Source: Capitulum mitella
Taxonomy: Eukaryota > Arthropoda > Thecostraca > Pollicipedomorpha > Pollicipedidae
DNA length: 64,000 nt
NCBI GenBank assembly: GCA_030062745.1
Contig: CP099842.1
Span: 30,232,901 to 30,296,900 of the forward strand
Reading direction: 5' to 3'
Positions 9,201-51,300 of this stretch are shown in pieces; position 1 is the first letter of the stretch, and the number at the start of each line of letters is the position of its first letter. The position numbers were made by a program, and so were the translations under genes. Below the pieces are notes generated by a model, which saw only the letters and a program-made list of their open reading frames with translations, did not search any database and was not told the origin of the DNA.

Positions 9201-12200
9201 AGTGCGGGGTCCACGTCATTTCATGTGCCTGTAGTGAGGGTTCGCGTTTCTCCGTATGTTGTGAGAAACCCACGCCACCATTGGTCGGAACCCAGAGTAT
9301 TTCTGCTGAATAACGTGGCTCCGTGAGCTGGTCACGCCACGTGCCGCGTGACGCGGGGAGCGCCCCTGGCCGCCTGTGACGCCGGCCGGCGACCTCCGTA
9401 GGCGGGCGTTATTTCACGCGGCGCCGCCCCGGCCGGGCCCGGCGGGACCGATCAGCCGCTGGGTGGGAGCGGCAGCGGCCGCCACCGCCGCCGGCCCACC
9501 CTGCCGGCAGAGGGCGGTCCTGCGTCTCCAGGAGAGGGACGGCGAGAGGCGGGCACTGCTGTCGCTGGGCGGATGGCGATGTTTGTGATAAACTGGCTTA
9601 GACTGCGTCTTTTCCATTTACGCTGAGAGGTTTGCCGCCATCTGCGGTCACTTGGCGCGCATTTACGTGGAATTGAATCGTGTTTCAGTTCTGCGGCGGC
9701 ATCTTTTAATGCCCCGTTGCTGGTTTCCTCCGTGTTTGCGGCTGTGTGCAGTCAGGCCGCGTCGGCAGAGCGCGGCGCTGTTTCGGCTGCCCTCCGCTCC
9801 TGCCTGATCCAGTCCGCCTCGCCGCAGGTTCGAGCGCGAGAAGGGCCGGGAGTCGAACTGGCTGAACGTGGACGCCGCCGCCGCCGCCGCCGCCAGCAAG
9901 CGCAGGTGAGCGCCACCCTCTGGGGCGACGGCGGCCATGAATCGGAAAGGAGTGGGTACATGTTGGACTTCGGGATGCAGTCTAGGAACAGTTATGGACA
10001 GCTTGCGTACGCAGACGCAGTTCACGTGCTAAGCAGATCAGGTGGAGGCGATCGATCATATGTGACAAAGTGCGTGGCGTAGTGCCGTAGTGTTGTGTTG
10101 TACAGGAACGATGCTTTGTTGCGAAATTCCTTTGACTATAGGGCAGTCAGGGCCCGTGCCGGATTCGTTTCCAACAAGAGCATTGTCTTGCACCGGCGCG
10201 CCCCGGGGGCCGCGGACCCGGCCGGGGGCGCCGGACCCGGGGGCCGGCCGATTATCGGGGCCGACACGCGTCACTCGGGAGACGGAGAGGGTGCTTCGGC
10301 CGCCGGTTAACGGGCCGGACGCGGACCGGGCGGCGACGCGGCCGGCCCGGTGTTACACTGAAAGCCCCGGCGCCGTCGCGTCTGCCGGCCGGCCGTTACT
10401 CACCCGCCCCGTTGCAGTAAGGACATGGGCGCGGCGCTCAACGGGTACGCCGAGTGCTATCCAGGCCTGGAGGAGATGGCCGACGCCATCGACGACTCGG
10501 ACGACGAGGCCGACTATTCCAAAATGGACATGGTGGGTGGCGGCGGCGGTGACCGTGCGGGAGGCCTCATGCTCCGGTTGGGGGCCGACTGATGTCGCGT
10601 AACATTTGTTGGAATTTGCTTTTAGTTCTTCTGATTTAGTATTGTATGTCTGGGTGGCACTGGCATAATAAGTTGAATTTCTTCATTTGCTTGTCGAAAA
10701 CGTCGGGCATTAACCGTGCAATTTGTGGCGTGCACGCAGTGCAGTTTTCGTCGTACTTTGACGCCATTTAAAGCTCGAAGACGTCTGCAGACAGGGCTGT
10801 GCCGAAACCTGTTTGCAAGTTTTGAAGATGCATCTTTAGTTCGAACGCTTTTTTGTCGGATGTTTCGCTTTGCTGTCCCGACGATAAGTGCGCTTTGGTG
10901 TGCGTTGTCAGCCATTGACCCACAGAGCTCAGATCAGTGTCTATGCCTTTAAGAGAATCAATAACATCGTTAAAAAAGAAAGCTGAAGGCAGTGCACCGC
11001 ACGTGTCGGGCATGCTGGCGCTCTAGCCCTGCTGAGTCGCCTCGCCACCGCCCACAGGGGAACAAGAAGGGCCCGATCGGCCGCTGGGACTTCGACACGC
11101 AGGAGGAGTACAGCAACTACATGAACCAGAAGGAGGCGCTGCCGAAGGCGGCGTTCCAGTACGGCGTCAAGATGGCCGACGGCCGCAAGACGCGCCGCAT
11201 CCCCAAGGAGAAGAACGAGAAGGCCGAGCTGGACCGCGAGTGGCAGAAGATCTCGGCGATCATCGCCAAGCGGAAGTCGGCGGGCGATGACGGGTGAGCG
11301 CCGGTCAGGGGTTGGGCCTCGCGGGCACTGCTCGGCCCGCGGGACCGGGCTGTCGGGTCAGACGCTCGACGGCCTCCCCTGGCCGGCCATGAGGTCGGGG
11401 CAAGGCCGCGGCAGACGTGGTGGAGTCGCGCGGGAGTTGGGTTGGGATTGCTCCCGACGGCCAGCGAGGAGAAGTGATACGCCGGGCGCAAGCGCTTTTC
11501 ACGTCGTTGGTTTCGCGTCATTAGCCGCGTTTGGCGTGAGCGGGGTACGCCCACGTATTGGTACTCGGGGCGCCGCTTACCGTGCTCTGCTGAGCCCGGC
11601 CCGTTGGGGAGAGCCGATTCGGGCGGCGCGGTGCGTGAAGATAGCCGGCATTAGCGCGACTGACCGGCCGCTGGCGGCGGCGGCGGCCGGTCATTACCGG
11701 CCGACGCCGACGCCGGCGCCGCGCGCCTCCCACGGCGTCCGGCGGCGCTGCGGGCTGCCGGCCGGCCGCCGGAGGCCGGGCACGTGCCGGCCGGCTTCCC
11801 GGCCGGCCCCGGCGGTCGGCGCACCGCGCCGCGTAATGCCGCCGGAGATCATGCGGGAATCGCTCATGATCTGCGGCCGCCCGCCGCGCCATTAACGGGC
11901 GTTTGCATGCATGCGGCGCGCGGCGGCGGCGGCGCTTCCGTCGCGCCACTTGAGTCGGCCGCCGGTCCCCGGGGACATCGGACGGCGGGACGCACCTGGC
12001 CGCCGAGTCGGAGCTGAGCCGACGGCGACGGAGGCGGCGGCGGGCGGCGCGCGGGTCGGCCGACACCGGCTCTGGCATTGGCGGCGGATGTGCACGCCAG
12101 GAGCTTGCGGTGGCCGATGTGCATGTAGACGCGAAGCTCGTGATTCGCTCTGGAGGTGCTTTGGCTGAACCGTCCTGTTTTGTTACCTGTTCTTTGACGA

Positions 12201-17211: not shown

Positions 17212-18357
17212 CATGCGCATTGGAAAGGGGGCACTTTTGTGCCCTACCCCCACCTGTTTTTCTTGAAAATCTCGAGAAAGGAAAGGAGTTGGTCGATGCT
17301 ACTTTGTGACATTTGTGGCAATTTTATATGTCGTCGATTAACGCAAAAATCGAAAATCGGCCCGAGATCTTTTAAGTCTGAAGCTATATGAAATCAAACA
17401 AACATAACGAAAATAATGGTTCTCGCTGACAAATGGGAACTTTGCGAAAGGACTAGCGTTCTAAGTAAGATTACCATTTGAACATAATCAGCCGACATCA
17501 TTCGGGCATAACTGATGGATTTACCAAGCCAGGGTCAGCAAGGGTCAAGGTCATCAAAGGTCAATGTCGAACAGCTTGTGACCTGGTCCAGGTTTGCTTT
17601 GCAACACGTCGATTTGTACGAAATATGCATTCAAAGGCCCTAGTAAAAACACGTCTGACACGATGACACGTTTATTTATGTATCTATGTGTAATTTTTGC
17701 GTTTTACAACAATCAAATCATGTAATTAGGCTCATTATGACGAAACAACTTAAGCTTCAACAGTTGACATACTTTGTGTAAAAACTTCATCCAAAGTCCA
17801 TGACCTCCCTCCATTTCTTTTGACCTTGCGTGGTTTAGGAAACGCTAGAAGTGATCGAAAGTACCGATTTCGGCTATCTTCACAGAAAATACGCCAAAAC
17901 ATGCGGTTGCTGCCCTTACTTACACTCAGGCTACACCAGTATCCCGTGTCGCTCGAAATCTGATCCGCAAAAAAGTGAAAAAATGACTTAATAGGTTGAC
18001 GGCTTAACATGACCTCGACCCCAAGTCCGCCATTAAAACGCCAAATAACTGGAAATTACTGTATTTCACGTTCCAACGTTCTAACACGCATCCTTTTCCC
18101 GTTTCGTTCGAAAAGCCGCTCGAAATGGCCTTTGCGGGCCTAGAAAGTGTCCAGAGTTGACCCTTTTCGACCCCATTTGACCTTGATGATATTGGCCTAG
18201 GGCCATGAAAATTACGCACTATGTAAACCTACATTACCCTACCCTACCCTGAAAATTTCATGTCTCCCACTCTCTTCGCTTGCGAGATCGGAGGGGAGGG
18301 CACTTTTGTGTCCCCTCCCAGTGCGCGTTAGCGTGAAACCCTCTTCCACTGCGCATG
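17212..18357. mobile_element. 1.15-kb non-autonomous DNA element, TTAT-flanked, family unknown
   Basis: The left end reads CATGCGCATTGGAA and the right end, reverse-complemented, CATGCGCAGTGGAA: a 14-bp inverted repeat with one mismatch. The same 4-bp word TTAT flanks both ends (17208-17211 and 18358-18361), as a target duplication would. A second inner feature supports it: GGGGGCACTTTTGTGCCC near the left end and GGGCACTTTTGTGTCCC near the right, each itself palindromic. No transposase frame is inside. The plan (short terminal repeat plus subterminal palindrome) resembles the piggyBac-like pair elsewhere in the window, but the termini differ. Only one copy was seen here. Confidence 0.6.
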
Positions 18358-18361
18358 TTAT

Positions 18362-19620
18362 GGTGGATTCCTAATCACCTGACATCCGTAATGCGGTTGC
18401 CTTTATCCCCATAACAGTGATGAAAAAGCAGAAGGTTCAGAGTCACTCTGGCCGAGTGAAGTGCTCTCAGACCTGGCACGTATCCACTGATGCTCGTTGG
18501 ACACCACTTGGAGAAGCTCCATCCATTGCGTCTATCGAATTACATCCTGTACACCCAGAGCGACTCGCGCAAACGACTCCCGTTCAGGATAAATAATTCC
18601 GTTTCTGAGAGGATCGCTTTCAAGCAGTAAGCAGGGCAGCCTGAATCCAATTGATCTGTCCGGCAAGATGGCATCTATTTCTGAGAATGGGCAATTTGTT
18701 ACATATAACCTGTGGTCAGTGAACATTCGTTTATCCCGCGACAAGGTTTGTCACGTGATCGCTGTGTTCTCGCTTTGTACTAACACACGTTTGGTAGGTT
18801 TAGGTGATCCGATTAATTTTGCTTCATTCTCTGTCCTTTTTGCTTCATTGTTGCTTCACAGAGCTTCGGTTTCCACGTGGCTGGTGTATTCTATCGTCCT
18901 CTGACCACATGCGAAAAAAAGAATGCCTCACAAAGATGTATTGCATATGCACGTTGACATCGGCAAACATCATCAACAGCTGAAATCGTTTGCAGACATG
19001 AGCAGTCCAGGGTAACGTGTGAAGAACTAGCAATATATTGTCAGCCACCAAAATTGACGCTACACCGAACACAGAATGCGGAATAACACCTGTTCTTAGT
19101 ACAGGGTGCAAACGGCGACTCTGACATGTTTCGGGCTCTGGTTTCGAAAATAACGTAATCCGTAACGCCGCAACTCTTCACAATGTCCATAAACCCATCT
19201 CCGTGATGGCCGCCCGGAGAATTACTCGCCGAATGGTGTTTCGTCTCCCTCAGCACACAGAGCGGTTTGCAGTGACTCCTGACAAGATTCGGCGGGCGGC
19301 GAACTCCCAGCCGGCCTGCGTGGCGCTGAGCCGGCGGCAAAAGCCGCGTCAGGCCGGCCCCGGCCTGTGGTGCCCGGCGCCTGCCCGATTCCCGGGCCGG
19401 CCGGCCCGCCGCGCCCGAGAGCGGCCGGAGCGGTCCGCGGCCGCCGTCGGCTCCGATTGCCACTCGTGAGCGCGGCCCCCGCCGACAGGCGGCCGCGTCA
19501 TCAGGCGGCTCGTTGCGCCAACGGCCCCCGGCGGAGCGGACGTCTCGTCCGCCGTTCGTCTCGGCGGCGTTCGGCCGCCGGCGCCGGCCGGCCCTCGGTC
19601 CGCTGCTGGCGGCGGCACGG
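18362..19620. other. Intergenic; no gene seen
   Basis: AT-richer DNA to about 19.2 kb, then a GC-rich block that probably forms the 3' UTR and downstream flank of the minus-strand peptide gene. No element or RNA recognised. Confidence 0.5.
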
Positions 19621-19995
19621 CTACAGCCGGCGCTTTAGCCGGATCTGGTAGCGCTTGTAGCCGCGCGAGTAGCCGGCGCCGCGGCCGAGCCGTATGCTGC
19701 TGGCGCGAATCTGGCGCGGCCCGAGCGGGCCGAGCGGGCCCGGCTGCCGGCCCAGCCGCAGGAAGCTGGAGCGCGCCGCGCGGCCCGCCAGCTCGACGTC
19801 GCCGTCCGGCTCGCGGCCCAGCCGCAGGAACGTCTGCCGCTTGCCGGGTTCGTCGGGAGGCGCGCCGCCGCCGCTCGGCTGCGCCGGCCAGCCGACCTCG
19901 GCCGGACCGGACGGCTCCTCCGGCCAGGCGGCGCGCCACGAGCCGGCCGCCACCGTCGTCACCAGGCCGAACCACAGCAGCAGCCAGCCGCTCAT
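19621..19995 (-). CDS. Neuropeptide-type precursor releasing FLRLamide / IRLamide peptides
   Basis: A 124-residue protein. Residues 1-18 (MSGWLLLWFGLVTTVAAG) form a signal peptide, then comes an acidic/Pro-rich spacer. Processing sites follow: KR52-53, QTFLRL-Gly60-Arg61; Arg75, SSFLRL-Gly82-Arg83; Arg97, ASSIRL-Gly104-Arg105; KR114-115, YQIRL, KRR121-123. The Gly before each Arg would give C-terminal amides: (pyro)Glu-TFLRLamide, SSFLRLamide and ASSIRLamide. The start is the only ATG after an acceptor (ctcgtctccgttccgccgcag, exon from 20005), ten bases upstream. No coding exon is needed before it, as in many peptide genes with a 5' UTR exon. LRLamide ends recall molluscan and annelid myomodulins (MLRLamide) and, more loosely, FLRFamides; I do not recognise a standard arthropod family. 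Function as a secreted peptide hormone or transmitter is inferred. Confidence 0.8.
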   Translation of the reverse strand: MSGWLLLWFGLVTTVAAGSWRAAWPEEPSGPAEVGWPAQPSGGGAPPDEPGKRQTFLRLGREPDGDVELAGRAARSSFLRLGRQPGPLGPLGPRQIRASSIRLGRGAGYSRGYKRYQIRLKRRL

Positions 19996-21766
19996 CCCGC
20001 CGGGTCTGCGGCGGAACGGAGACGAGGTCAGACGGGCCGTCGCGGACGCCGACGCGTTCTGAGCGAGCACGACGCACTGACACAGGGGACCGACTTCGCA
20101 CATAACAGGGAACGACCCGGTACAAGAGCGAAACAGTGGAACTTTGCTGATGAAAACGAAGGCGGCGTTGGCGGCGAGCAGTTCGGCGCGAGGGCCGGAA
20201 CCGGGAATTCTCCGGCGTGGGCACTGCGGTCCCGATCTATCAACGTCGAGCCGCGGGGGATTCCCCCCGAGGCCCGTGTGTCGGGCAAATTTCCCCGGCT
20301 CAGGACCCGGCCATTCATCATGGCCCACCGCGCGGCCGAAGGTGAGATTTATGCCCTGATTAGCACGTGGCCGGGACTCGGACTCCAAGGCGGCCAGGAG
20401 TGGCTTCGCGACCGGGCAGGCACGCGGTGGCGTTGAGACGCTCGCCCGCGGGCGTAAACGAGGTCCGCTGTGAATGCTGCGTCAGTAGAAGTAACGGAGC
20501 AAACGAGAATTCTGGGTGTTTGGGGTTCTGTGGGTTGGGTTGTTTTTCTTGATGGATTTCGCAAAACAGTCACACTTTGCCAATCGATTTCACTTCTGTA
20601 CACCCGAATAAATGCAAGTTTGAACGCCGAGCACGCCCATCATATTTGTCGACTTTAAAAAGACACCGGAAAAAAATGTGTGAAAACGACAACATCACTC
20701 TCGGAATAGCTGTTTGAGCTCAAAAGGCACCATGCTACCGCGCTGTAGATGCAAGAGCAATTCTACGAATTAAGCTATCTTCTGGTGAAATTTTCATAAT
20801 TCGTAGCCCAATGATTACCAAGTTTCAAGGCTGTCAAAGATCTGGATGGGCCGTCCACTTTGGCTTTTTTCTGCCAGTTGAAGTACTCGTCAGTCTACGG
20901 CCCTACTCGTAATGAGGTCAACTTGGTGCAATTTTGCAAGTTTAAAAGGCAAGATCTTCAGAGCAGCATGCTAGCTGAAAAAAAATCGTGAAACTGGAAC
21001 CAAGTATCATTAATCACAGAGATACAATCGTTACATTTGTGAAAAAAGATGTTCGCTCGTATCTAATGATCTTTTTAGCCGAGCTATATCTTTTTGGACA
21101 GTATTAGTGCAGCCACAATGCCAGTTTATGTCCTTAAGCACGCTGTTCCTGATAATGAACGGGAATCTTTTTGAAAGTCCGGGGAAAGTATTGCTTCGTA
21201 GTTTGTAAAACAGGACCATCCTTGCCTTGTCTTGAATTTCTGAAAAAAAACACCCAAATTGTTTGGATGTTCCTCGAATGCATAGCAAACGGTACCTTTA
21301 ACACGTACCTATTGAACTCGTCAAGTACTATAGAAAGCGTTGATCTCTGCTGTCACGCGATTCGTGATTGTGTGGTAAACATAAGAGGGCAGCAATGCAT
21401 GGGTATTGCTCCAAACCTTAACGTGATGTGGTTCAGGCGGTATGCAAGTCTGTTAACCTCAACGGTCCAGAGTTTTCGGATCTGCAACATGTAAGAGGTG
21501 CTTTTTTACGTGTGCGGCACTGACTCGGCACCAACCAGTACTGTTCTGAAAACAACGGCAGACGCAGCTCCGATCCCTACCTGCAGGAACTCGTATAAGA
21601 TCCAATGTGTTCTGACGCAAATCGTACGCAAAACGACGGGCTTGCCGTACATATATGACGTGGAGCTTTTATGCGGTATAGTGTTTTCGCCATTTACGGC
21701 ATTTTTCCAGCACTGCTGACGGTAAAATGGCCCCGACGATAACAGTCTGTTCTGACGGCTTTCAGC

Positions 21767-26399: not shown

Positions 26400-26660
26400 G
26401 GCGGCCCGCGGGACGGCGCGGCCGGCCGGCGCCCGAGGCGACTCACCTGAGCGAGCGTCACGCGACGGTGCAGACGGCGTGCCCTGAGGGGACGGTGTCT
26501 GTCGGTCGCCGACCGTCCGCCGCCGTTATGTAGCGGCCAGCGGCGGCCGCGCGCGCCGCCGCTGGCTGGTGCGGCGCCGCGCGTCGGTCGCTGAACACGC
26601 CGGGCTGGGCTGACTGGGGCACGGCTGACACCGCTGTGGGTGGACGAAGGTAAGTGGAAC
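26400..26660. promoter_or_regulatory. CpG-rich block with donors in both directions
   Basis: A short GC- and CpG-rich island. On the minus strand a leader could run from about 26500 to 26451, ending CGCTCGCTCAG before a consensus donor GTGAGT. A TATA-like CTACATAAC lies upstream near 26530. This is a good candidate first (non-coding) exon for the FLRLamide gene. On the plus strand, GGACGAAG ends at 26649 before GTAAGT, another good donor that could start a divergent transcript. Neither is proven; the island and donors are seen, the gene links are inferred. Confidence 0.4.
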
Positions 26661-35129: not shown

Positions 35130-37860
35130 ATGGCCCTGCAGCGTTGGATGCTGCCAGCTCCAACTCGGTTGGGGGAAGCCGTCAGCGGTGCGTTTAGCTA
35201 GCGCGGGTGGCGCGGTGTGGGGCGGACGTGGTCCGTATTAACGGTCGCGTGGCTGAAACCAGGCATCATTTGCTCAGGAGCTGGCCGCGTGTAGGGAGTT
35301 GCTCCTCTGGTCGTTTTGGGCGAGACTGCCGAGAGCAGACAGCTGCCGTCACGGGACTGGCCTGTGAAATGTAGGCTCAGGTGTCGCCCTTTGCGGCCAA
35401 GCCCAGGGTGCGGGCACAGGTGAGTCAAGTAACGCGTCCGCACGCCTCTATTTGTTTAACTTACTCCAGACTCTAGTCTAGGTCAGGTCAGAGTCCCCGG
35501 TTGTAGCCCTGACCTGAGCTGACCCGACACCCCTGCAGCTGCTGGCCTCCCTGGGAGCGTCGATGGCCGTCGGCGGCTGGGCCGTCGGGATCGGCGTCGG
35601 CAGCGTCTGCGTGGACCAGCTGTCCCGCGGCGTCGGCGGTTTCGTGCTGACCGGGAGCCAGGAGCTCTGGACTGGTGGGGCCTCATCGCATCGCATCGCA
35701 ACCGAATCTCAAAGACGCTGCGTTGACGGGTGTTGGTAAAAGGTAGCCCATCGCCAACAAAGTTGGCTTGCATGTTGCCACGCGACATTGTCAGCCTTCA
35801 TGCAGCCAAGCAACGCTTTTCTTTCTTTTCTTCTTTATTTTATGGTGAACAGAATATACGGACAGGTGCACACTTTGCTGCCTTCGCCTGAAGTTGACCA
35901 TCCATCTAGCTTTGCTTGTTTATGAGTTAGGACACACAGCCTCTTGGGCTCGTATGCCCAGCGTCTTGGGTCAAGTCTTGGGTCAAGTCTTGTGTTTCGT
36001 CCGGCGTCAGTCAGTCGTCTGCCACCATCCACCGCGCTGCCCTTGCGATGAACGACCACATTTATTTCCGTTTACAGTGACCTCCAACTTTATCGGCACT
36101 GTGGCTGGCTCTGCGGTGGCCGTAGAGTTTTCCCGCCGTTTCGGTGCAAAGAACACCAGTTCGAGTTCCTCGTGCACATTGCATCGGCTTTATCATCACC
36201 TATCTGGCCAACTGCTTCGAGATTCTCGTGGCAGGTGAGCGTGCACCACTACTGAATGGTTTTTCACGACGATGATACTCGATGAGAGTTTCGTGCCGTG
36301 TGTGGTGGACTTCTTGTGCGCATATCGTTTTAATGCTTTTATATGAAAGGTTGCATAAAGACGTGTGTGACAAATGTGCCGATGTTTCATATGAATGTAT
36401 CATCATTTTATATGAGTCAGGTATAACCTCAGTCACGATGACACGTGCTGTCAGAACATGTGCAAACCATACAAACCAAACCAAGTTGTCGCTGTCTTGT
36501 TTCAAAACGTGTTTTAGCCAGCTTCTGCTCCGGTCCCGCCTTCGTGCTGCACGTTTTCTTCATCAGCGCCATCGCGTCGCCGCAATATCGAGGCTTCCTG
36601 GCCATGCTGCCCGACATCGTGTACATGCTGTACGTGATCGCCAGCCTGCTGCTCGGCGTCCAGCTGCCCTGGTGGTGGGTGTCGGCGGCTGGCTGTGCCC
36701 TGTTCTCCGTGCCCACCATGCTGGCGCTGACGTTGGTGCCGTCCGACCCCGTCTGGCTGCTCCGCTGCGGCCGGCTGGACGAGGCCAAACACGCGGCTCG
36801 CTTCTACGGTCTGGATCTGCCCACGGACTCGACGGAGGGCGGCGCCGACGACGCGTCCAAGTCGCTATGGAGCCTGCTGCGCCAGCCGAGCTACTATCGG
36901 CCGCTGCTGCTGTCGGCCGCCCTGCTGCTGGGCGTGGCCTTCTGCGGCTACATGGCCGTGCTGAGCTACTCGCTGGTGCTGCTGCGCGAGCTGGGCACAC
37001 CGGCCGACGCCACGCTGGTGAGCGTGCTGCTCTGCGTGGTGCGCATCGTGACGGTGGCGGCCGTGGCCGTGCTGATCGACCGGGCCGGCCGGCGCACGCT
37101 GCTGCTGGTCTCGGCGGCCGGCATGCTGGTCAGCTACCTGGCCGTGGCCGCCTGCTTCTACGTGCCGGCGCTGGCCGGCTGGCCGGCGCTGCCGATGGCG
37201 GCGCTGGCGCTGTCCGTGTTCTTCTTCTGCGCCGGCGTGGGCCCCGTGCCGTGGTGCCTGATCGGCGAGATTGTGCCGCCGCGCGCCGCCGACGCGGCTG
37301 GCGCCGCGCTCGTCTTCCACTACAACATGGCGTCGCTGGTGGCCGTGCAGCTGTTCCCGGCCGAGCTGGCGGCGCTGGGCGTGGGCGGCGTGTTTGCGCT
37401 GCACGCGGCCATCATGGCCGCCGTGCTGGTGCTGATCGCCGCTCTCGTGCCGGAGACGCGAGGCCTGACGCTCGAGCAGATCGGCCGCCTTTTCCAGAAC
37501 GCCGACGACCGGCCGCTGCAGGTGAAGGCGCCGCCGCCGGGCTACTGCACAGTCGCCCCCGTCGCCGGCGGCTGGACGGTATTGGCCCGGTACAGGATTT
37601 GATTGGAGTTCATCGAGCCTGTGGGACTCATCTCATGGGTATCTGGCCGTCCGAGGTCTTTGAGACAGTTTTTTTTCGCGCGGTCGCTCTATGGTCTCGC
37701 CGAACTGAAGAATCAGACAGCAATGTTACCTCGTCTTTAGGTCCTGTATTCGCCTCCTTCGAGATACGAATTATTTATACTTTCACCCCATCCTCAAGCA
37801 AAGCCATCTCACAGTTAGACGTTCAGACGTGTCATGCTTTCACAGCATCTTTATTGCCGC
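35130..37860 (+). repeat. Left arm of an inverted gene duplication
   Basis: This arm matches 41250-44045 in reverse complement. It includes the promoter, four exons, introns and start of the 3' UTR of a sugar-porter gene. Introns, exon 3 and flanks are clearly diverged (roughly 70-85% by eye). The tract 36521-37519 is nearly identical to 41439-42438. Confidence 0.85.
35351..37602 (+). pseudogene. Sugar-porter (MFS) gene copy 1, decayed 5' half, open last exon
   Basis: Exon equivalents are 35351-35419, 35539-35674, 36078-36234 and 36518-37602, matching the copy at 41.4-43.8 kb. Lesions: the start codon is ACG (35351); the seventh codon is followed by TAG; exon 3 is 2 nt shorter than its partner, shifting frame after RRFGAKNT; exon 4 lacks the first bases coding GRLLVG of the conserved AGRLLVGF; the TATA box has become gtattaac (about 35235). 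Exon 4 remains open from SFCSGPAFVLHV to the stop at 37602. It carries family motifs DRAGRR, GPVPWCLIGE and VPETRG, and ends in a different tail (about 15 residues longer than copy 2). If it were expressed, it would need another start inside exon 4. Pseudogene kept partly open by gene conversion is the likeliest reading. Confidence 0.7.
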
Positions 37861-41379: not shown

Positions 41380-43821
41380 TCAGCCGCCGCCGACGGGGGC
41401 GAACGTGCTGTAACTCGGCGGCGGCAGAGCCTTCACCAGCAGCGGCCGGTCGTCGGCGTTCTGGAAAAGGCGGCCGATCTGCTCGAGCGTCAGGCCTCGC
41501 GTCTCCGGCACGAGAGCGGCGATCAGCACCAGCACGGCGGCCATGATGGCCGCGTGCAGCGCAAACACGCCGCCCACGCCCAGCGCCGCCAGCTCGGCCG
41601 GGAACAGCTGCACGGCCACCAGCGACGCCATGTTGTAGTGGAAGACGAGCGCGGCGCCAGCCGCGTCGGCGGCGCGCGGCGGCACAATCTCGCCGATCAG
41701 GCACCACGGCACGGGGCCCACGCCGGCGCAGAAGAAGAACACGGACAGCGCCAGCGCCGCCATCGGCAGCGCCGGCCAGCCGGCCAGCGCCGGCACGTAG
41801 AAGCAGGCGGCCACGGCCAGGTAGCTGACCAGCATGCCGGCCGCCGAGACCAGCAGCAGCGTGCGCCGGCCGGCCCGGTCGATCAGCACGGCCACGGCCG
41901 CCACCGTCACGATGCGCACCACGCAGAGCAGCACGCTCACCAGCGTGGCGTCGGCCGGTGTGCCCAGCTCGCGCAGCAGCACCAGCGAAGTAGCTCAGCA
42001 CGGCCATGTAGCCGCAGAAGGCCACGCCCAGCAGCAGGGCGGCCGACAGCAGCAGCGGCCGATAGTAGCTCGGCTGGCGCAGCAGGCTCCATAGCGACTT
42101 GGACGCGTCGTCGGCGCCGCCCTCCGTCGACTCCGTGGGCAGATCCAGACCGTAGAAGCGAGCCGCGTGTTTGGCCTCGTCCAGCCGGCCGCAGCGGAGC
42201 AGCCAGACGGGGTCGGACGGCACCAACGTCAGCGCCAGCATGGTGGGCACGGAGAACAGGGCACAGCCAGCCGCCGACACCCACCACCAGGGCAGCTGGA
42301 CGCCGAGCAGCAGGCTGGCGATCACGTACAGCATGTACACGATGTCGGGCAGCATGGCCAGGAAGCCTCGATATTGCGGCGACGCGATGGCGCTGATGAA
42401 GAAAACGTGCAGCACGAAGGCGGGACCGGAGCAGAAGCCGACCAGAAGCCGCCCTGAAACAAAATGGCGAAAAGTTAGGTTAGTTTTTGCAGTTTTACAG
42501 TTTTACAGTGCAGCGAAGCTCGCGTCATCGCCGTGCCCTGCGTCAAATCTGCTTGATTTTAAATTGATATTTTCGTGATTTGGAACTTGGGCGCATTTTC
42601 CGCAGACATGTATATGAAATCATTATGATGTATGAAATGCGCATATGACAAGACATTCATATATAGCCTTTTATTCAAGACGTTACAACAGTGTGCACGC
42701 GACAACATCAGAAAACCTTTATCGGACACTGTATACAAGGACTATCCTCATTTCACAATTGCCGTTCGGAAATGGTAGGCGCCTACCTGCAACCAGAGTC
42801 TCGAAGGAGTTGGCCAGAGAGGTGATGATGAAACCGATGACGGTGGGCACGCAAAATCCGAGCATGGTGTTCTTGGCTCCGAAGCGGCGAGAAAACTCTC
42901 CGGCCACCGCAGAGCCGACCACAGTGCCGATAAAGTTGGAGGTCACTGTAAGCGGAAATGGACACGAACGTCTTACTGGATGTGACTTTGCCGTCAAAGG
43001 TGGTCGGAAAATGTTCGCAGCAAGGGGAAGATTGCTGGTTGGTGTATTAAATGAAGGCGAAAGCAAAAAATATCCGTTTATGCTCTCAACCGTGGTTGGA
43101 TATTATGCGGGGCATACAGTAAAGAAGAAAACTATATAAAGCATCAGAAACTAAAAACGGTAGGATCTGATTTCCGTTGCAGCACATGGCCGAAATTTTT
43201 CGATGCAAGGTTATGAAAACTGGCGAACGCAACGCCGCTGAAAGTCGGCTACAATGCGACGCGACGAGAAGTCCTCACCAGTCCAGATCTCCTGGCTCCC
43301 GGTCAGCACGAAACCGCCGACGCCGCGGGACAGCTGGTCCACGCAGACGCTGCCGACGCCGATCCCGACGGCCCAGCCGCCGACGGCCATCGACGCTCCC
43401 AGGGAGGCCAGCAGCTGCAGGGGTGTCGGGTCAGCTCAGGTCAGGGCCACAACCGGGATCAGCAGCGTTGCCGGCATCAATGTGCCACGCTGTTGACAGG
43501 CAGTATCATACTGCAAACGGACGCCAGCGAAACACTGCACGGCATTGGTAGAACGACCACTCATTTCTAGCGCAACACACGCCGTCTTCAAGCCACAGAC
43601 TGTACTGGCAACGGTCCACGGCTGACTGCCGGCCTGCTGGCCGGCTGACCTCGCCCGGGGCAAGGTCGCTCACGTGACCTGCCACATTTGAGGATGTGGA
43701 GTCATTATAGGTATGGGGTATGGAGTATTAGGAGACGCGTTACTTGACTCACCTGTGCCCACACCCTGGGCTTGGTCACAAAGGACGACCCCTGAGCCTC
43801 CATTTCACAGGCCAGTCCCAT
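41380..43821 (-). CDS. Sugar-porter family MFS transporter (trehalose/glucose transporter-like), copy 2
   Basis: A plasma-membrane facilitative sugar transporter of the SLC2/Tret1-like type; the exact substrate cannot be read. Exons on the minus strand: 43821-43753 (MGLACEMEAQ start, 23 codons), 43414-43279, 42945-42787, 42453-41380. All junctions are GT-AG and in phase, giving about 478 residues, normal for the family. Motifs: KPRVWAQLLASLGASMAVGG (first membrane segment), EFSRRFGAKN (loop 2-3 signature), ETLVAGRLLVGF, SPQYRG, VPSDPVWLLRCGRLDEA (loop 6), DRAGRR (loop 8-9), GPVPWCLIGE (segment 10) and VPETRGLTLEQI (after segment 12). One oddity: exon 4 has an extra base near 41988 (GCTACTTCGC, against GCTACTCGC in copy 1), which breaks the frame. 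It is either a recent mutation or a sequence error. A TATA box lies upstream. Confidence 0.75.
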
Positions 43822-46270: not shown

Positions 46271-48603
46271 TTACTCGACATGCCAGCGCATGACGGTGTA
46301 ATCTGTGCCATTTTTCTGATACGTTTTCAGCGGGTGGTAATCCGCCAGATTATTCACTGGCACAAGCTTGAGCCTGCCACTTTTTACCAACTTGTACGCA
46401 TTACAATGGAAACAAAATTCGCTTGATACCAGATCTACAAGCAACGAGACATGCTTCGCAGTATCCATCAGGACATACTTGACTGAAGAGAAAATGAATC
46501 CCGGGTTCGTCTTTAGCATCACCACGTCACCTGCAGTATACTCTGTGCCATGAATTGATACAGAGGTTCCGAAATGCATGTCGGACGATATCCTCACCCG
46601 AACTTCATGTGGTATGGATCTCATATCCACCACGGCATCCTTGAATCCATGAACCCTGTTTGGAGACATATAGCCTGACTCATCCAATTTCAATGACAAT
46701 CCCTGCTGATGTCGCACAGCGATAGTTTTAGGCATATTCTTTCGATTCTTTGAACGCTGCGCGATCCCCTTCAGTGGTCCGTGTTTTGATTCGTACCTCA
46801 ACGTCCACAAATGTCTGATCGGCCCATGACGTCGAATTTGAGTTCCATAGTGGATCATGTGGTGGAACTTTGCCTTAAGCCAAAACGAGGGAAAGGTAGT
46901 CTTCAAATCCATAAGCCAGCGTGCGATAAGCTCCTCAAGGTAGATAATGTCACCACTGAAGAAGCACGGGGCAAACACGTTTTCCACCAGCTGACACAAG
47001 TCGATGAGAAGCGTCCAAACGTCGTTGTTTTCTGGAACGTAATCTCCAATCATAAGTGGCAGCAATCGCAAAAGTAGCCACATCTCGCAAGCAGTTTGCC
47101 TGACTCTCAACTTTCCTTTTATTTTCTTCAACGGCTGAGGCCTGTTCGGTTCGTTGAACTGAAATCCACTGATGCATTTGTTCAGCACATCCAGCGAGAA
47201 ATATTTGGCGTTCATAAGGGATGTGAGTATCAGCATTAATGCATATGGCACGACGCCTTCTAAAAGATCATGGGCAGCGTCAGGCACCAATCGTTCAACA
47301 GGGAAGCCTTCGTCGATGGTGCTCAAAGCGGACAATGCGTGTATGCCATATTCTTGCTGCTTTTCCTTGGAGAATTCGAACTCCTCAAGTTCAGTGATCT
47401 GTGAACGGTACATCACTGAATCTCTCAGTGTCACTTCTGACTCGCAAAATGCCGTCTGCTGCTCCTCGACGTCAGCCAAGCAGAAACGACAGCATTTTCC
47501 AGAGCTGAAACACATGGAGAAGCCACCCAGGGAATGAACTGCGAGGTTGTCTCCCACCACACACGAAACAGTGCCTTTGATAGTTGTCTGCGAACCATGC
47601 TTCCTAATGGTAACGCCTTTTTCTTGCAACTCATTCACATCTGCTACGATCCTTTGCAGTATTTTCTCCCAACCATGTTCCTGGATCTGGGAAGTCTTGC
47701 AAACTGCGGCAACATATATCGAATCGAGACGAGATCTCAGGTAGGCAGGAATGTTCAGCAATGAGAAATATATGCCTGCAAGCTTGGACTTTGATACTTT
47801 GTTTCCCAGGGGATCAACTACGTTAAAATCATCGTAATACAAAGCCAAGCGAATTGGTCCTGGGCTTCCCTGATGCAGACTTCCGTCACAGATATCCGCG
47901 ACTTTCCCTTCGTCATGAACACCGTCAGCGAGAACATACTCCAAAACGTGCTCGTTGGACAGGAGTGCTTCGAGCTGTTTCAGAATCGGTATGTACTGGA
48001 ATGATGACCATCCTCCTGATGGACTTCTCAGAAATACAGACTGCGGACCAGTGAATGGAAGCTCTTCACGAACAAATTTGTCCAGCTTATACATGGAACA
48101 AAACTCAGCAAAAGCTGCCAGAGTTTGTGAGCTGCCAGCCCGTGATGTTACATCAAGAGCATTGGCCCCCTCAGCATCGGAGGTTTCTTGGATTTCATCG
48201 ATTGCTGCTTTGATAAAATTATGACTTTGGTCCGCGATGTAGCTGCACAGTGACGAGGACACATTATGTTCATAACGCAGGTGGCCGACAAATCTTGCAA
48301 CAGCCTTACGCTTGCTGCTGGTTCGCGATGGTTCAAAGCAATTTACTTCTCCAAGTTCATGACTGGGGCCCGCTTCCACTAAACCAAAGTCTTCCTCAAC
48401 TGTCTTTTCAGGTTTCAGATTCCGGCCATGTCCCAAAACATGTCTTTTCCAGTTCCATCCAGTGGATATGATCTTTGGACAGTATGTGCACTTGAACCCT
48501 TTCAGTTCGTCCTCTGTGGCATGACGTTGAAGATGTCTGGCAATTACATTTACATCACTATGTCTAAAGTTAATACACATACTACATGCATGTATTTCAT
48601 CCC
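46271..48603 (-). CDS. C2H2 zinc-finger transposase-like protein, long intact frame
   Basis: A single exon of about 777 codons, open from an acceptor (tgtgctttccatttcag, exon from 48603) to the stop at 46271. The frame also runs on to 48688, but that part reads as intron. Counting from 48688, two C2H2 fingers lie at residues 35-56 (CSMC...HLQRH) and 67-87 (CTYC...HVLGH), and a CxxC pair at 397-403. Then come YYDDFNVVDPLGNK (about 285-297), PDAAHDLLEGV (469-479), LLRLLPLMIGD (539-549) and LWTLRYESKHGPLK (627-640). The Asp...Asp...Glu spacing suggests a DDE-type nuclease of the CACTA/Tnp2-like class known from many uncharacterised animal genes. An upstream exon must supply the start. No terminal repeats were identified, so it could be a transposon or a domesticated derivative. 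Low GC3, unlike the host exons, supports a mobile origin. Confidence 0.7.
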
Positions 48604-49958
48604 CTGAAATGGAAAGCACATGAATGATAAATCTACAGCAAAAATAAAAAGGTAGACAAAACAACATTTGCCATGCCAACCCCAGCATGGACTTAAATCT
48701 GCCATTGTAAATCAGGCGGCCTTAGGCTAACAAGACAAGTAGTCCCAAATCATTGTGAACGATAATTCGCAGGAAAGTATTTATGTTGCTTATCGCAATC
48801 CAAATTCCGACTTTTCCAAGATACCCCGACTCGCGAAATGGAAATCGGTTGGACAAAGCACTTTTTTCTCAGCAAAAATTGGACAGCTTATTGTAAGCCA
48901 ACTGCCAAAAAATTCGGAAACTAAATGTTGCTTAGTATCGTGCATACATACTCAACTCTGAGGATGGCATTTCTCAAATCTCAATCCAGAATCAATCAAG
49001 ATTTCAATCAAGAAATCAGTTCATGTACTGTAAAAACATGGTGCCAGCTACATACTGTAGGTTGGATTATCTTAAGGCAATTGGAGGGGTAGGAGGGGAT
49101 GCTAAATAGGCATCACATGACTAGTTGTTCCCCGAACATTGGTTTATTCCATGATTTCGACTGCTTTGTTTGGAAAGTTGTTGTAGAACTGTGGAAGGGG
49201 GCTGAGCCCCATACTGAGCATAAAATATGACCCTGTTTTCACATGTTTCACCCCAGTTTTGTGAGGGCCCAAAAACAACTGTTTTATTATTTTCCTGTGC
49301 ATAACAGTTTGGTTACATTGCAACTGGTGCCCTGTAAACATGACAAAACAGGCTGTTGGAGCGATGTTTCTATGGCACGATGCTTGACAGACTCACAGCA
49401 TGACCCCACTTGATCTGTCCTGGTAAATGCAGAATAAGCACTGAAATAAACACTTCACTACTATATACAGCCAAGTGGGTTCTACATTCTACCAAAGTGC
49501 AAAGCAGAGGTAAGAGGATGTCAACATCATAGCGAAAAATGTTGCACCCAGCTTACCAATGTGCAACTAAACTTGTGAAGTTTTAACATGGGGATGCACT
49601 CAGGTCTCACTGAGGTGTACTTTGGTGCATTATGAGAGCATAAATCTGAGACATACATAACATTTTCACCAGGTGATGAAAAACAACATAAATGGCATAA
49701 AAGCCATACAACAAATGGTTCTATGTTACATACTTGTGATTTGGTTGCTGCATAACATAATTTCAAGATGAAGAAAGTGAAAACAATCACCAAAAAATAT
49801 CGCCACTCCATTCGTCACTAACCGCTGTGCCATTTGTCTGACTTCTGCTGCGATCCTACGACAACAAAGTCAAAAAGGGCAATTCCAAAGATCAAGGTAT
49901 TTTGCTCCTGATGATGTCATCAGTATAACCTAATGAGTAATAAAAAGATGACTTGCCC
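48604..49958. other. Upstream flank of the transposase-like frame; no gene seen
   Basis: AT-rich DNA that may contain the missing 5' exon of the transposase-like gene; none stands out. Frames here are short and low in information. Confidence 0.4.
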
Positions 49959-50002
49959 AACCTAACCTAACCTAACCTAACCTAACCTAACCTAACCTAA
50001 CC
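49959..50002 (+). repeat. Interstitial telomere-type array (CCTAA)n, 1
   Basis: About nine perfect CCTAA units (TTAGG on the other strand), ending in a CCAAA variant. Confidence 0.95.
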
Positions 50003-50785
50003 AAACTTTACATATTTAGTCACACAAACCAACCTCTGCTGGACAGAGCCAAGTCTGATTGCACCCTTTGTTGGCCAACAGCCTCTAGGATCATGTACCT
50101 GCCTCTGGCGCTGGGTCAGACTGCGCCTCCAGTATCATTTACTGGTGATGCCATCAAACCTTACGCAGTGCGTAGGGCATCCTTGAAGCGAAGGTAGTGT
50201 AAACAAAATGGCACCACGTATTCCAGTCACGTTTACTTAAAATGGAGTATATTTCTATTTCCTTTGAAAACCATACTGGTAGTGCCACCATTCTTTGCTT
50301 CCATAGGAAAGTTTATGAACTCTTCTGTACCATATGTATAGCAAAACTGGTCTGTGAAAAGGTGAAAAAGTATAGTATTACCCAAATCTGCGATCTGCTA
50401 CATGACTGTGCACCTGGCAAAAGAACTATGGGTCAACAGTAAGATTCAGCCCGAGCGCTTACTTCCAGGGAAAATAATCGTAGTAGTGGTTGCATGGCGT
50501 TTCAAATGCAATATTGATAAGTATTACTTACGATTTCAGCCGGAAAAACCTGAAACACACATTATTTCCCCCGAAACAGATTGCGTCGTCACTGGTATGC
50601 TAACCGCCAGACGCTCGCGTAGGGATTTTTGACGTTTCTGTGTTAAATAGTTTGTTTACGTGAGATCTCGACGCTGATTGGTCGTCGGTCGGACTCAAGG
50701 TCCAATCAAGAGTAATAAAAAAGTTTCGGGGGAATAACTAATGCGATATAAATTATCTTTAAAATAAAAAAAAATTAACCGTTGT

Positions 50786-50870: not shown

Positions 50871-50960
50871 AAAGTAAAAATATTACAAAGATGGCAAAGC
50901 GTAGTTCCAATTTGAAAAATACAAAAAAAAAAAAGCAATGAAATAAAATATCTGAAAAAA

Positions 50961-51300
50961 ATCACGGAACAAAACTGGAAAATATTAGAAAGTGAAATAA
51001 AACAATAAATAAAAATTTACCCTGGCCTAACATAGTAACCAAACCTAACCTAACCTAACCTAACCTAACCTAGCCTAGCCTGGCCTAACTTAACCTAACC
51101 TAACCTAACCTAACCTAACGTAGCCCAGCACAAGAAATCACGGAACAAAACTGGAAAATATTAGGAAGTGAAATAAAACAATAAATAAAAATTTACCCTA
51201 GCCTAACATAGTCACCTAACCTAACCTAGCCTAACCTAACCTAACCTAGCCTAACCTAACCTAACCTAACCTAACCTAACCTGATCTAACCTAGCCCAGC
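50961..51300 (+). repeat. Tandem duplication of about 176 bp including telomere-type repeats
   Basis: The block beginning atcacggaacaaaactggaa and running through taaaaatttaccct(g/a)gcctaa recurs at 50961 and 51137. It is followed in both copies by CCTAA arrays. Copies are about 97% alike outside the arrays. Confidence 0.9.
51042..51119 (+). repeat. Interstitial telomere-type array (CCTAA)n, 2
   Basis: About 15 units with CCTAG and CCTGG variants in the middle. Confidence 0.95.

Follow-up and report, generated by a model that had tools for sequence, protein, structure and literature searches.

A frame of 124 codons in a GC-rich island raises the question of whether it encodes a peptide-hormone precursor and, if so, to which neuropeptide family the gene belongs. 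The island lies in the window, the whole 64,000-nucleotide stretch of DNA analyzed here. A sequence-only reading had called the frame a neuropeptide precursor and suggested that it might represent an undescribed family. The 124-residue frame, its peptides, and its coordinates are as that reading gave them (Table 1; translation of minus strand 19621-19995, MSGWLLLWFGLVTTVAAGSWRAAWPEEPSGPAEVGWPAQPSGGGAPPDEPGKRQTFLRLGREPDGDVELAGRAARSSFLRLGRQPGPLGPLGPRQIRASSIRLGRGAGYSRGYKRYQIRLKRRL), and the precursor assignment is backed by the coding signature, the motif statistics, and the processing sites. Regarding the family, sequence comparison leads us to consider the locus, at a probability of roughly 0.7, an arthropod FMRFamide-type (FaLP) neuropeptide gene, and the precursor is most likely the FMRFamide gene of the host or a paralogue of it.

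Table 1. Predicted features of the precursor locus (window coordinates)
Feature	Positions	Strand	Evidence
Precursor CDS, 124 residues (ATG 19995-19993, stop 19623-19621)	19621..19995	minus	Translation, third-position G+C, codon score
Putative signal peptide, about residues 1-19 (MSGWLLLWFGLVTTVAAGS; cut near A16-A17/G18)	19939..19995	minus	Hydrophobic stretch, small residues at -3/-1
Copy 1, KR-QTFLRL-GR, expected pQTFLRLamide (residues 52-61 with sites)	19819..19842 (peptide + GR)	minus	Dibasic KR before; RLGR after, Arg at P4
Copy 2, RAAR-SSFLRL-GR, expected SSFLRLamide	19753..19776	minus	Arg at P4, both cleavage sites
Copy 3, RQIR-ASSIRL-GR, expected ASSIRLamide, without the family's Phe	19681..19704	minus	Arg at P4, both cleavage sites
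YQIRL between KR sites; no Gly, hence not amidated	19630..19650	minus	Dibasic residues 114-115, 121-122
Splice acceptor, pyrimidine-rich tract ending CAG	20006..20030	minus	Pyrimidine fraction 0.75, top of nine YAG sites 20481-20006
Putative noncoding first exon end, donor CAG/GTGAGT (GT 26446-26445)	26439..26500	minus	Strict donor match

Coding signature of the precursor frame

Several frames are open in the GC-rich island, so that the openness of the precursor frame says little by itself. The G+C content at codon positions 1, 2, and 3 of this frame is 75, 63, and 95%, respectively, and AT bases number 30, 45, and 6 at the three positions (124 each), a distribution with a hypergeometric P value of 1.2e-9 for position 3. 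This third-position pattern is bounded by the ATG and the stop codon, and the flanks (19400-19620 and 19996-20481) are without the AT codon-position bias of the precursor frame. A synonymous-codon score was trained on a small set of 447 codons from the transporter and IK exons of the window, two genes with third-position G+C contents of 89 and 96%, compared with 95% in the precursor. The precursor frame scored +43.9 bits, while the other five frames ranged from -56.9 to +6.4 bits and the two flanks lay at -50.8 and -27.4; in 3,000 Markov control sequences, the top frame out of six stayed at or below 23.7 bits. Two other coding interpretations were rejected on this score: a longer protein extended through the open stretch as far as 20481 (codon score of the upstream part, -50.8) and a gene on the opposite strand, which the sequence-only reading had named as a possible refutation (plus-strand frames at -30.5, +6.4, and -30.7 bits versus +43.9).

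The repeated motif gives a second line of evidence. The pattern [LIMVF]R[LFIMVYW]G[KR] occurs three times in the precursor, which is the sole stop-free frame of the window with at least two occurrences. Among simulated islands of equal length, two motifs were found in 5 of 3,000 order-1 and 7 of 3,000 order-2 Markov sequences; the claim that a triple RL-Gly-Arg exceeds chance is thus borne out, as none of the 6,000 islands reached three. Likewise, none of 200,000 residue shuffles of the precursor yielded three [LI]RLGR motifs. In 19250-20500, the search reported no family of direct repeats of at least 14 nt, which indicates that a recent tandem duplication is not the source of the RL-Gly-Arg units. 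We regard it as very likely that the minus strand of 19621-19995 holds a real peptide-hormone gene, a confidence that is simply the complement of what we assign to a chance frame (see below).

Predicted peptides and gene structure

The precursor is predicted to hold three amidated copies and one nonamidated relative, YQIRL. Its ATG satisfies a simple signal-peptide rule, a weak criterion that 30 of the 281 in-frame ATGs of the window also satisfy. For cleavage at a single arginine, P4, P6, or P8 must be basic. Each of the three predicted amidation sites is RLGR, which places Arg at P4, and the N terminus of every copy follows either a dibasic or an Arg-at-P4 site; a rule widened to P6 and P8 would also mark the Arg within every FLRL or SIRL, so that the sites are separated by the P4 version alone. 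The QTFLRL peptide would probably carry an N-terminal pyroglutamate. Calculated [M+H]+ masses are 759.4512 for pQTFLRLa, 721.4355 for SSFLRLa, 645.4042 for ASSIRLa, and 692.4090 for YQIRL.

The acceptor proposed earlier is present, with 20006 as the predicted last intron base and the exon running from 20005. The donor at 26446-26445 is the only site on the minus strand from 20 to 34 kb that matches strictly; by our estimate, chance alone would supply about one in that length, which leaves an intron from 26446 to 20006 plausible only. If this donor is used, the message has no ATG within the 200 nt upstream of the junction, and in exon 2 the ATG at 19995 comes first. The Drosophila FMRFamide gene has this layout, a noncoding exon followed by one coding exon; our literature search found no supporting source for it. 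The closest downstream minus-strand poly(A) signal found, at 17676, is some 1.9 kb distant, so the message would have a long 3′ end.

Profile searches contributed little to the family assignment. The precursor had no match to the Pfam FARP profile (PF01581), and this says little, since four locust FLRLamide copies alone were also missed and a six-copy locust construct that included two RFamide copies reached only an E value of 0.2, below the curated cut-off. The NCBIfam search of the precursor returned nothing. Only two PDB sequences matched (E values, 0.017 and 0.02), both a bacterial-type reaction-centre subunit aligned to residues 4 to 41, and these were taken as chance. No relatives of the precursor were found in viral_contigs or genome_contigs, neither of which includes arthropod genomes, so that this result has no bearing on conservation.

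Probable relationship to arthropod FMRFamide-like peptides

The sequence-only reading knew of no standard family of arthropod peptides ending in FLRLamide, a statement contradicted by the FMRFamide peptides of Schistocerca and Periplaneta, which include RLamides (PMC12035899, excerpt). The typical ending of FMRFamide-like peptides is given there as F-L/M/I/V-R-L/Fa. In Table 1 of the same source, four of the six FMRFamide-gene peptides of Schistocerca gregaria are FLRLamides (Schgr-FMRFa-1, -2, -3, and -6), and 5 of the 19 amidated Periplaneta peptides of the FMRFamide family are RLamides, including NFVRLa, NFIRLa, and SVRLa types. Two of the three amidated copies of the window (QTFLRL and SSFLRL) fit the typical ending, and ASSIRL falls outside it.

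Each of the two insect precursors resembles the candidate in its own way. That of S. gregaria shares several copies, mostly with FLRLa ends, and Ala/Gly-rich stretches, and its RSNFLRL and TRSFLRL are close to RSSFLRL of the window; it differs in having six copies rather than three, one FLRFa and one FIRFa among them, and a Phe in every copy. The Periplaneta americana precursor likewise combines RLa-ending copies with nonamidated peptides, and its NSVRLa, which lacks Phe, parallels ASSIRLa (SSIRL); it differs in that most copies are FIRFa and that it has 24 numbered peptides (22 listed). Several observations speak against the FMRFamide assignment. ASSIRL has no Phe at all, the Asn or Asp that commonly precedes Phe is absent from every window copy, and no copy has Phe as its last residue, whereas RFamides are among the products of both comparison genes. 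FaLP precursors usually contain more than three copies according to the excerpt of PMC12035899; the candidate has three amidated copies plus the nonamidated YQIRL. For Locusta, the incomplete transcript in the excerpt of PMC4237046 encodes four FLRFamides and one FIRFamide, endings that disagree with the locust table of PMC12035899. On a separate matter of spelling, some apparent FLRLamides in the Lymnaea literature, as excerpted, are EFLRI-amide set with a lower-case l.

The three window copies were scored together with BLOSUM62 against sets of known peptides, over six or four C-terminal residues, by best or mean match. The sets comprised all 6 Schistocerca peptides (long peptides cut to the C-terminal part), 19 of the 22 listed for Periplaneta (3 nonamidated dropped), 8 of 8 for Drosophila, 6 of 6 for Tenebrio, 16 of 34 for crustaceans, and 9 of 21 for Latrodectus from Table 1 of PMC12035899, together with four FxRIamides and six myomodulins; Rhodnius and human peptides were omitted. 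By best match, Schistocerca and Periplaneta lead (Table 2). Summed means over six residues place FxRIamides (50.1) above Schistocerca (47.2), and over four residues the order is reversed (42.6 for Schistocerca and 36.1 for FxRIamides).

Table 2. Summed best scores of the three window copies; set sizes differ (3 to 19 peptides), so the best score favors larger sets
Peptide set	Six residues	Four residues
Schistocerca	57	47
Periplaneta	57	50
Mollusc FxRIamide	52	38
Tenebrio	46	37
Crustaceans	44	37
Drosophila	44	33
Mollusc myomodulin	43	36
Myosuppressin	28	35
Latrodectus	27	23

By sequence alone, the insect FMRFamide genes are thus only modestly preferred to the FxRIamides; the decision in their favor comes from the last residue, which is Leu and never Ile, and from the arthropod host suggested by telomere-type repeats. 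TTAGG is the arthropod telomere unit. Arrays of it occur on the minus strand at 49959-50006, 51036-51119, and 51214-51293, the last two within a 176-bp tandem duplication (50959-51293), and the window has no TTAGGG tandem, which suggests an arthropod host. A barnacle host was proposed from base composition only and gained no support, no barnacle FMRF sequence being present in the excerpts.

Alternative origins of the precursor

The best surviving alternative, which we still judge improbable, is a lineage-specific neuropeptide gene that does not descend from an FMRFamide gene and has converged on -LRLamide, with the same processing and secretion but a receptor of its own. Such an origin would agree with the Leu ending of all three amidated copies, one of them without Phe, and with the Pro/Gly-rich spacers and the lack of a profile match; nevertheless, two insects already have the LRLamide ending in their FMRFamide genes, which makes a new family superfluous. 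The proposal of an undescribed family is unnecessary for the same reason, given the FLRLamides in Table 1 of PMC12035899, as excerpted.

Membership in a lophotrochozoan family, FxRIamide or myomodulin, would call for a nonarthropod host or for these families reaching arthropods, and we give it a distinctly smaller chance. The molluscan FxRIamides come in many copies of the SSF-x-R-aliphatic-amide type, and their common form, xSSFxRIamide, is near SSFLRL (PMC5996578, excerpt); they also rank first by mean score over six residues. Their last residue, though, is Ile in all four peptides used and in none of the three window copies, and the family is described from molluscs in the excerpt of PMC5996578 and from other lophotrochozoans in that of PMC8557429. 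Molluscan myomodulins (xxxMLRLamide) share the LRLamide end and the many copies but have Met where the FLRL copies of the window have Phe (PMC5996578 and PMC8172996, excerpts); myomodulins are termed spiralian orthologues of myosuppressin in the excerpt of PMC8557429. The likeness to myomodulins noted by the sequence-only reading is therefore weak, since Met precedes LRL in all six myomodulins used and in none of the window copies. The TTAGG arrays, which point to an arthropod, argue against both families.

It is very improbable that there is no gene, but only a chance open frame in the GC-rich island or a relic: although several frames are open and the minus-strand poly(A) signal (17676) lies some 1.9 kb downstream, the third-position and codon-usage signals are restricted to the precursor frame, and the motif counts are far above the controls. 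Least probable of all is a derived myosuppressin or pyrokinin/CAPA-type gene, for while myosuppressins share the FLRx-amide core, ending in FLRFa (PMC4237046, excerpt), and pyrokinins have the motif FXPRLa in the excerpted literature, myosuppressin-type genes usually encode one and occasionally two peptides as excerpted (one per transcript in Locusta; PMC4237046, excerpt) against three copies here, no window copy has the final Phe or the HV of the HVFLRFa ending (summed score, 28), and none has Pro before Arg-Leu.

Proposed processing, function, and significance

Under the FMRFamide-type assignment, a noncoding first exon would probably be spliced to a single coding exon, and the product would enter the secretory pathway. 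Cleavage would follow KR and those Arg residues that have a second Arg at P4, and the Gly thus uncovered would be converted to an amide, yielding pQTFLRLamide, SSFLRLamide, and ASSIRLamide, perhaps along with free YQIRL. The peptides may be released from neurons or neurohaemal organs and bind an FMRFamide-type G-protein-coupled receptor. Their effect would most likely be myotropic or cardiotropic modulation, by neurohormones that target muscle, heart, or gut, which are the roles given for the FMRFamide-like family in the excerpt of PMC12035899.

The family itself is known; what appears mildly new is that all three predicted amidated copies end in Leu and none in Phe. A tentative extension, which we hold to be unlikely, is that a gene of FMRFamide type, or its duplicate, has switched all amidated copies to a C-terminal Leu, the host using RLamides and making no RFamide from this gene. 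For a brachiopod FLRFamide receptor, exchange of the last residue for Leu (DFLRLamide) nearly abolishes activity (PMC5577450, excerpt), so that an RLamide-only gene would need a Leu-accepting receptor; if the switch is real, the receptor would have shifted to accept Leu. Such a locus would add a compact RLamide-only precursor of FMRFamide type to a family best known for RFamide ends and, if confirmed, would offer a natural test of joint ligand-receptor change at the last residue. Searches and profiles built on RFamide ends can miss genes of this kind, as FARP missed the lone locust FLRLamides.

Other features of the window

Rfam and tRNA scans over the whole window found nothing. An 816-amino-acid open frame at 46271-48721 (minus strand) weakly resembled DUF4218 (E value, 0.00074) and Transposase_21 (E value, 0.056), both below the curated cut-offs, and had no relatives in viral_contigs; it is probably a transposon protein. 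Sugar-transporter copies at 36464-37539 (plus strand) and 41419-42495 (minus strand) form an inverted duplication with arms 96 to 99% alike, and the minus-strand copy reads in two frames, which indicates a shift or an assembly error. The final coding portion of a gene for IK/Protein Red lies at 10974-11297 on the plus strand (Pfam RED_C E value, 7.1e-38; human Protein Red E value, 1.1e-35). Tandem arrays with 36-, 60-, and 96-bp units, 96 to 100% alike, occupy 2281-2593 on the plus strand.
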